A DNA stretch of 64,000 nucleotides, from NCBI GenBank assembly GCA_016207825.1, contig JACQZI010000027.1, forward strand, positions 1 to 64,000, written 5' to 3'. A model generated the notes under the pieces. That model saw nothing but the letters and a program-made list of their open reading frames with translations. It had not been told where the DNA came from and made no database searches. The position numbers were made by a program, and so were the translations under genes. The DNA is from Planctomycetota bacterium. Lineage in GTDB: Bacteria; Planctomycetota; MHYJ01; JACQXL01; JACQZI01. Shown piece after piece: positions 8,842 to 10,080 of this stretch; within the stretch, counting starts at the first letter, position 1; each line of letters starts with the position of its first letter.

Positions 8842-10080
8842 ATGTTTAAATCAGCGGATATTGTCATAATCGGCGGCGGGGTTTTCGGGACTTCCGTTGC
8901 CTACCACCTCGCCCAATCCGGTCTGCCTGTCCCGTTGCGCGGGACGCAGGCAGGCGCTAAGAATATAATTCTTTTGGAAAAAGACCTGCTCGGAAGCGGC
9001 GCCACCGGCAAGGCCGCCGGTTTAACCATACGACAGTGGACCACAGAACTCGATATCGCCCTGGTCAACGGGTCACTGGAAATATATAAGAGCCTGCCCG
9101 GTATTAATTCCGCTTTCAGGCAGACCGGGCTTGTGTATCTGGCAAGCACTGCGGATGACGATAAATACCTCACCCAATCCGAGTTACTTATAAAGACAGC
9201 CGGTGTCCGATATTCCCGCTGGGATAAAGCCGCTATTAAAAAGAATCTCCCCTGGATGGCGACGGATATTTTCACTGCCGGTTTATACACACCCGATGAC
9301 GGCTACATAGACCCCTACCAGATAGTTTCCGCGTTCGCTTCCCTGGCGCGTAAAAAGGGAGTGGAGTTTTGGGAGAAGACCGAAGCCATAGCAATAGATG
9401 TCTCGGATAATAAAGTCAGCGGGGTCAAGACCAGCCAGGGCTATATTTCCACTCCACTTATAATCAATGCCGCAGGCGCCTGGGCTAAAAAGGTCGGCGC
9501 ACTGGCTGGGTTGAATCTTCCTTTGAAACCTTACCGCACCCAGATTGCCGTCCTATGCCAGTCCGGAGCGACGGCTACGGAGCGGCGGATGGCCGTCCTG
9601 AAACCCAAGCACAAGCTCCCCAATAATTTTACCGCCGTTTATGATATGGCTAAGAACGTGTATTTCCATGAGGAAACCGGAGGCCTTCTACTTGCCGGGG
9701 ACGGCACGACCGAGACAGAGGAAAACCCCGACCAATATAAACAGCGGGGTGACGATAAATTCCTTTCCGAGATTGCGGATAAGATATCATCGTTAATTCC
9801 CGGAATGTCCGAGGCTGGAGTGGTAAAATCATGGGCCGGGCTTTGCATGGCAACTCCTGACCGCCTGCCGGTTTTAGGGCCGGTGAAGGAGTTGGAAGGA
9901 TTCTGGATTGCCGGGGGCGATAACGGCTACGGATTTATGAGGGCCGGGATGCTCGGCAAACTCTTGGCGGAAATATTGAGGGGAGATAAATCATCGCTTG
10001 ATATCTCCTTGCTTTCACCGGAGAGGTTTAAGGGCAAAGATTATTCTGAGTTTAAGATTAAGCAGGGAATGACGGTTTAA
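8842..10080 (+). CDS. FAD-dependent oxidoreductase of the DAO/sarcosine oxidase beta-like family
   Basis: The N-terminal Rossmann fold shows 'DIVIIGGGVFGTSVAYHLA', then 'NIILLEKDLLGSGATGKAAGLTIRQW', typical of the glycine/D-amino-acid oxidase superfamily (sarcosine oxidase beta, proline or glycerol-3-phosphate dehydrogenase relatives). The C-terminal 'GLCMATPDRLPVLGPV...GFWIAGGDNGYGFMRAGMLGKLLAE' is the FAD-binding end of that family. The natural substrate is not determinable; amine or amino acid oxidation is likely. I prefer ATG 8842 over the TTG at 8830; no strong ribosome site supports either. An 11-residue segment (LPVPLRGTQAG) between the first helix and second strand is encoded by a palindrome at 8923-8953 and looks like an in-frame insertion. 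No paired alpha/gamma subunits are nearby, so it is probably a stand-alone enzyme. Confidence 0.85.
   Translation: MFKSADIVIIGGGVFGTSVAYHLAQSGLPVPLRGTQAGAKNIILLEKDLLGSGATGKAAGLTIRQWTTELDIALVNGSLEIYKSLPGINSAFRQTGLVYLASTADDDKYLTQSELLIKTAGVRYSRWDKAAIKKNLPWMATDIFTAGLYTPDDGYIDPYQIVSAFASLARKKGVEFWEKTEAIAIDVSDNKVSGVKTSQGYISTPLIINAAGAWAKKVGALAGLNLPLKPYRTQIAVLCQSGATATERRMAVLKPKHKLPNNFTAVYDMAKNVYFHEETGGLLLAGDGTTETEENPDQYKQRGDDKFLSEIADKISSLIPGMSEAGVVKSWAGLCMATPDRLPVLGPVKELEGFWIAGGDNGYGFMRAGMLGKLLAEILRGDKSSLDISLLSPERFKGKDYSEFKIKQGMTV
8923..8953. repeat. Palindrome inserted in frame in the FAD oxidoreductase
   Basis: Arms CTGCCTGTCCCG and CGGGACGCAGGCAG flank a 5-nt loop. With two adjacent bases it forms a 33-nt stretch that adds 11 residues to the Rossmann fold without breaking the frame. 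Similar GTCCCG/CGGGAC palindromes recur in other genes and gaps of this window. Confidence 0.75.

Follow-up and report, generated by a model that had tools for sequence, protein, structure and literature searches.

The window analysed here, a 64,000-nt stretch from a Planctomycetota bacterium (contig JACQZI010000027.1, positions 1–64,000), contains a gene for a FAD-dependent oxidoreductase of the DAO family, whose closest solved relatives are the sarcosine oxidase-like protein 1y56_B and dimethylglycine dehydrogenase, and which carries in frame a short palindromic element. The features at the locus are as follows:

8842–10080, + strand: host gene, DAO-family FAD-dependent oxidoreductase of 412 aa (Pfam DAO, PF01266, E 5.6e-63)
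8922–8954, + strand: inserted palindromic element, 33 nt (clean gap in the congeneric orthologue; boundaries by analogy with nested copies)
8923–8929, + strand: outer stem, 5′ arm, CTGCCTG (sequence, DNA fold)
8930–8934, + strand: inner stem, 5′ arm, TCCCG (sequence, DNA fold)
8935–8939, + strand: loop of 5 nt, TTGCG (sequence, DNA fold)
8940–8944, + strand: inner stem, 3′ arm, CGGGA (sequence, DNA fold)
8945–8946, + strand: CG bulge, 2 nt unpaired on the 3′ side of the inner stem (DNA fold)
8947–8953, + strand: outer stem, 3′ arm, CAGGCAG (sequence, DNA fold)

Read in succession, the segments from 8923 to 8953 form an imperfect palindrome with 12 paired bases per arm, split over two stems. 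An earlier note on this DNA had described a 31-bp palindrome at 8923–8955; the palindrome is real, but its pairing is not perfect, due to the CG bulge, and the inserted stretch is indeed of 33 nt, but best placed at 8922–8954. The palindrome folds as DNA with −12.6 kcal/mol (z = −4.4) and, together with its flanks, as RNA with −25.5 (z = −2.5). There are four palindromes of at least that quality in the window, versus zero or one in each of 40 Markov-shuffled windows; the other three resemble ordinary hairpins of the terminator-like or AT-rich sort. The reading frame stays open across 8923–8953, as the earlier note had stated; the 33-nt element amounts to 11 codons and the protein gains LPVPLRGTQA plus one Gly.

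The orthologue from a congeneric genome (G001:C24, locus L014), with 91 % amino-acid and 85 % nucleotide identity to the host gene, lacks exactly the 33 nt at the palindrome, and the gap is clean. The filled site in the window reads ...CTCGCCCAATCC GG[TCTGCCTG...CAGGCAGG]CGCTAAGAATATAAT, and the empty site in the congener reads ...CTCGCCCAATCC GG CACTAAGAATATAAT. Because of the flanking GG, the boundaries of the insert are ambiguous by 2 nt, and coordinates 8920–8952 and 8921–8953 fit the gap as well as 8922–8954. A gap of 10–12 columns is found in all 16 aligned homologues, some from members of the genus itself and the most distant from other families. The note had taken a clean 33-nt gap in orthologues as the sign of an insertion, which is what the congener shows, and the same 11 residues without a palindrome as evidence against one, which were seen in 0 of the 16 homologues. 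The congener also contains, just upstream of the start codon of the orthologue, a 55-nt insertion that is absent in the window and includes another hairpin, CCCCGAAATTCTTCGGGG.

In the AlphaFold model of the host protein (mean pLDDT 84), a helix at residues 14–25 is followed by a lower-confidence loop containing the insert and then by a strand at residues 42–46. The model and the alignment thus agree with the previous placement of the insert in the turn between the first helix and the second strand of the Rossmann fold. Comparison of the congeneric pair gave dN 0.058 and dS 0.714, which indicates purifying selection on the host gene. The gene contains a second in-frame insert, of 45 nt (15 residues), at 9547–9591, bounded by an 8-nt direct repeat, GCCGTCCT. 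Both congeners have this second insert and the remaining homologues lack it; no further copy of it was found in the loci examined, and over the surrounding 60 nt the congeners are 100 % identical, versus a gene average of 85 %.

Copies of the palindrome elsewhere in the genome, the existence of which had been left for checking, were found both inside and outside genes. The pattern CTGCCTG-N(3-33)-CAGGCAG has 12 matches in the window's genome, one of which (L006) is internally not much of a palindrome, and the reversed-pattern control has none. Six copies lie in frame in genes: that in the DAO gene and those in genes for sigma-factor-like, glycosyltransferase, acyltransferase-like, nucleotidyltransferase and zinc metalloprotease products. 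The latter five align to gaps of 10, 9, 7, 10 and 10 residues in homologues from the same order, each gap corresponding to the core plus 2 nt (cores of 28, 25, 19, 28 and 28 nt). Copies of a short form, situated outside genes in the same genome, have cores of 17 or 18 nt, a length that would break a reading frame. Presence/absence between the two congeners is also clean at loci L139 and L141, and at L067 and L004 the gaps are larger or more diverged. The short-form copy at L139 (G001:C80:4363-4379) is situated at the very end of a gene, spans 19 nt when its outer C and G are counted, and alters the C-terminal residues and the stop by comparison with the window's genome, where the site is empty. 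The short-form palindrome at L004 (G000:C5:194480-194496) lies within a larger hairpin-like stretch, CCCCGAACC...GGTGCGGGG, the entire 46 nt of which are absent from the congener; L004 is possibly a compound element. No second copy of the exact 31-nt sequence was found, with 0 matches in the genome contig collection, so that no identical source copy is known. A relaxed pattern yielded five matches in other MAGs from this collection; a match in Nitrosomonas lacks a real inner stem and was discarded as probably due to chance.

The family extends across the order. The pattern CTGCCTG-N(4-26)-CGCAG[AG]CAG has 56 matches in 15 genomes, and the reversed-pattern control has 0 in all 15; 48 of the 56 are from the same order, where a few overlap or are doubtful, and the copies in the order number about 45. 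These share a common design, CCTGCCTG - variable complementary inner stem - CG - CAG[G/A]CAGG, and in 46 of 49 copies the outer arm reaches 8 bp through an additional outermost pair. The inner stems differ from copy to copy and their complementarity is kept: in the three positions adjoining the outer stem of 42 distinct inner hairpins, 112 of 126 pairs are complementary, versus 78.6 ± 4.4 with shuffled 3′ arms; the observed count was reached in 0 of 20,000 shuffles. As CG is built into the order-wide pattern, its conservation rests on the matches found without requiring it, among which all the longer copies carry CG except L011, from the window's own genome, with CA. In-frame copies inside or adjoining conserved domains, identified by domain matches and not by aligned empty sites, were found for a Cys/Met PLP enzyme, a NadD-like CTP_transf (two copies), adenine deaminase, an M16 peptidase, methylmalonyl-CoA mutase, RecG, carbamoyl-phosphate synthase, HsdM, GatB, SpoVR and MutL. 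Taken with those in the window's genome, more than a dozen genes besides the oxidoreductase gene carry a family member in frame.

The ends of the element can be deduced from two copies in genome G007 that are inserted within another member of the family, in the arrangement CCTGCCCGCCGAAG[C/T]C, element, TCGGCGCAGGCGGG, the uninterrupted form of this host member being present in 13 copies in the same genome. Each nested insert is exactly C-core-G, and its target site is not duplicated. In combination with the empty sites in the congener, these nested copies place the ends of the element at CCTGCCTG...CAG[G/A]CAGG and show insertion of the whole palindrome without duplication of the target site.

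Very probably, then, the 33 nt in the oxidoreductase gene were acquired since the split from the congener, as a copy of a REP-like, non-autonomous palindromic mobile element. It is improbable that the palindrome is, instead, a functional RNA hairpin kept by selection for the control of translation or of the mRNA: it does fold stably as RNA, and a role as RNA elements has been proposed for transcribed REPs (PMC3733652), but it is absent from all the homologues aligned, it has copies in many unrelated genes and positions, and a search of Rfam gave no match for it. Most likely, the added residues serve no useful purpose and are tolerated by the enzyme as a loop. That they give the protein a new useful property is hardly probable; it would be in keeping with the purifying selection seen between the congeners, but dN/dS informs on the gene and not on the insert, which is confined to the window's genome and appears in the model as a loop of low confidence. 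Short palindromes can also arise by replication template switching, and no transposase is linked to this one, as would be expected of a sequence that arose de novo by that route and is not mobile. Such an origin is, however, very improbable, since outer-arm sequence, CG bulge and boundaries are common to copies throughout the genome and across genera, and two copies sit within other copies at precise sites. Least probable of all, the 33 nt could be ancestral and have been deleted in the congener and elsewhere, for a single pairwise gap gives no polarity by itself, but the 16 homologues all lack the insert, whose DNA is that of a dispersed repeat family.

Under the preferred reading of an acquired mobile palindrome, the element, here of 33 nt and in the family mostly of 27–36 nt, entered the turn between helix and strand as one complete hairpin unit, leaving no target-site duplication. 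Its insertion was tolerated by virtue of a length multiple of three and the lack of stops, both shown for the copy at 8922–8954. IS200/IS605 and REP elements move by a single-strand route with HUH-type enzymes. Three features point to a similar route here, namely the hairpin form, the CG bulge and the lack of target-site duplication, and it is conceivable, as a tentative proposal, that the element was mobilised as single-stranded DNA by a transposase of the HUH/Y1 type acting in trans. None of the 30 loci with Y1_Tnp genes examined in these genomes is flanked by the palindrome, with one marginal single motif at L097, and the window's own genome yielded a single Y1 match, to a short open frame of 94 aa. 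The missing link to such an enzyme counts against the preferred reading, as does the absence of an identical source copy.

The total length is divisible by three in 46 of 54 copies from 15 genomes, mostly of this order, and in 34 of 42 distinct inner hairpins, with a naive p of 3e-10 that ignores relatedness; some of the copies counted lie outside recognisable genes. Additionally, of 32 elements, 26 have no stop in any of the six frames; in shuffles the number is about 10. A multiple-of-three length was rejected as a universal rule, cores of 26 and 27 nt being common in other families of the phylum. The length bias in the order could stem from passage through coding sequence or from a small number of founder forms. 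The lengths divisible by three, also seen in copies outside recognisable genes, and the openness of most copies in all six frames raise the idea that the palindromes of the order are adapted to coding sequence, with an active pool that spreads through protein genes or is shaped by them and is moved by an unknown mobiliser, a reading which we consider rather unlikely.

Dispersed copies, compensatory stem changes and presence/absence at orthologous sites are general features of REP-like mobile palindromes, all of them seen here, and the sequences are best labelled as a REP-like, non-autonomous palindromic element family. GTAG REPs, associated with RAYT transposases, are likewise imperfect hairpins of 20–40 bp, with sub-families showing complementary stem changes and with intragenic copies (PMC3733652), but the present family has neither a GTAG at its ends, just 3 of 49 copies having this motif at a distance of up to 12 nt from an end, nor a RAYT/Y1 gene flanked by copies. 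CGTC REPs, which include RPE-4, RPE-6 and dRS3, are also short palindromes in and between genes for which no dedicated transposase is known (PMC3733652); they differ in the CGTC outside the stem, an 8–9-bp stem beginning with AT and a CCA-like tail. The present copies have neither the tag nor the tail, their stem does not begin with AT, and they have an internal CG bulge instead. Membership in the GTAG or CGTC super-families was rejected, as their end tags are absent among the copies tested. MITEs (Correia/NEMIS, RUP, ERIC) are small and non-autonomous and have inverted ends as well, but the element described here is shorter, nearly all hairpin, and without a target-site duplication beyond a possible 2 nt, the empty sites and nested copies leaving an ambiguity of ≤2 nt. 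The behaviour of the family is as in Rickettsia palindromic elements (PMC2229807, PMC10969869, PMC3767692): like these and their Wolbachia counterparts (RPE/WPE), it consists of palindromic repeats, presumed selfish and with no known transposase, that interrupt unrelated conserved protein genes without breaking the frame and that also lie between genes. RPEs are mostly of about 100–150 bp and occur in Rickettsia (PMC2229807, PMC3767692), in contrast to elements of 27–36 nt from an uncultured lineage. The distinction is based on size and on the missing CGTC tag of RPE-4 and RPE-6. The likeness is thus one of idea, as the earlier note had put it, with tolerance in proteins shared and size and end tags differing, and the comparison stands as an analogy that does not imply membership. 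No published description of the present sequence family was found in open-licence papers, the consensus figures of PMC3733652 being excluded from this search.

Selfish palindromes in frame have been described chiefly in Rickettsia and Wolbachia, and a few other species have reported REP cases; intragenic REP copies have been reported, for example, from Opitutus terrae (PMC3733652). The family described here is an abundant one in uncultured bacteria, with clean empty sites and with nested insertions that fix the ends of the element, and its host genes include those for repair and core metabolic enzymes. As a natural series of insertions, it can serve to test both the tolerance of proteins to new loops and the movement of palindromes for which no transposase is known. 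Related families occur elsewhere in the phylum, with 33–81 copies of the hairpin design per genome in G255, G279 (f50) and G082 (f57); two of these three high-copy genomes are 99–100 % complete, and the three are good material in the search for the mobiliser.
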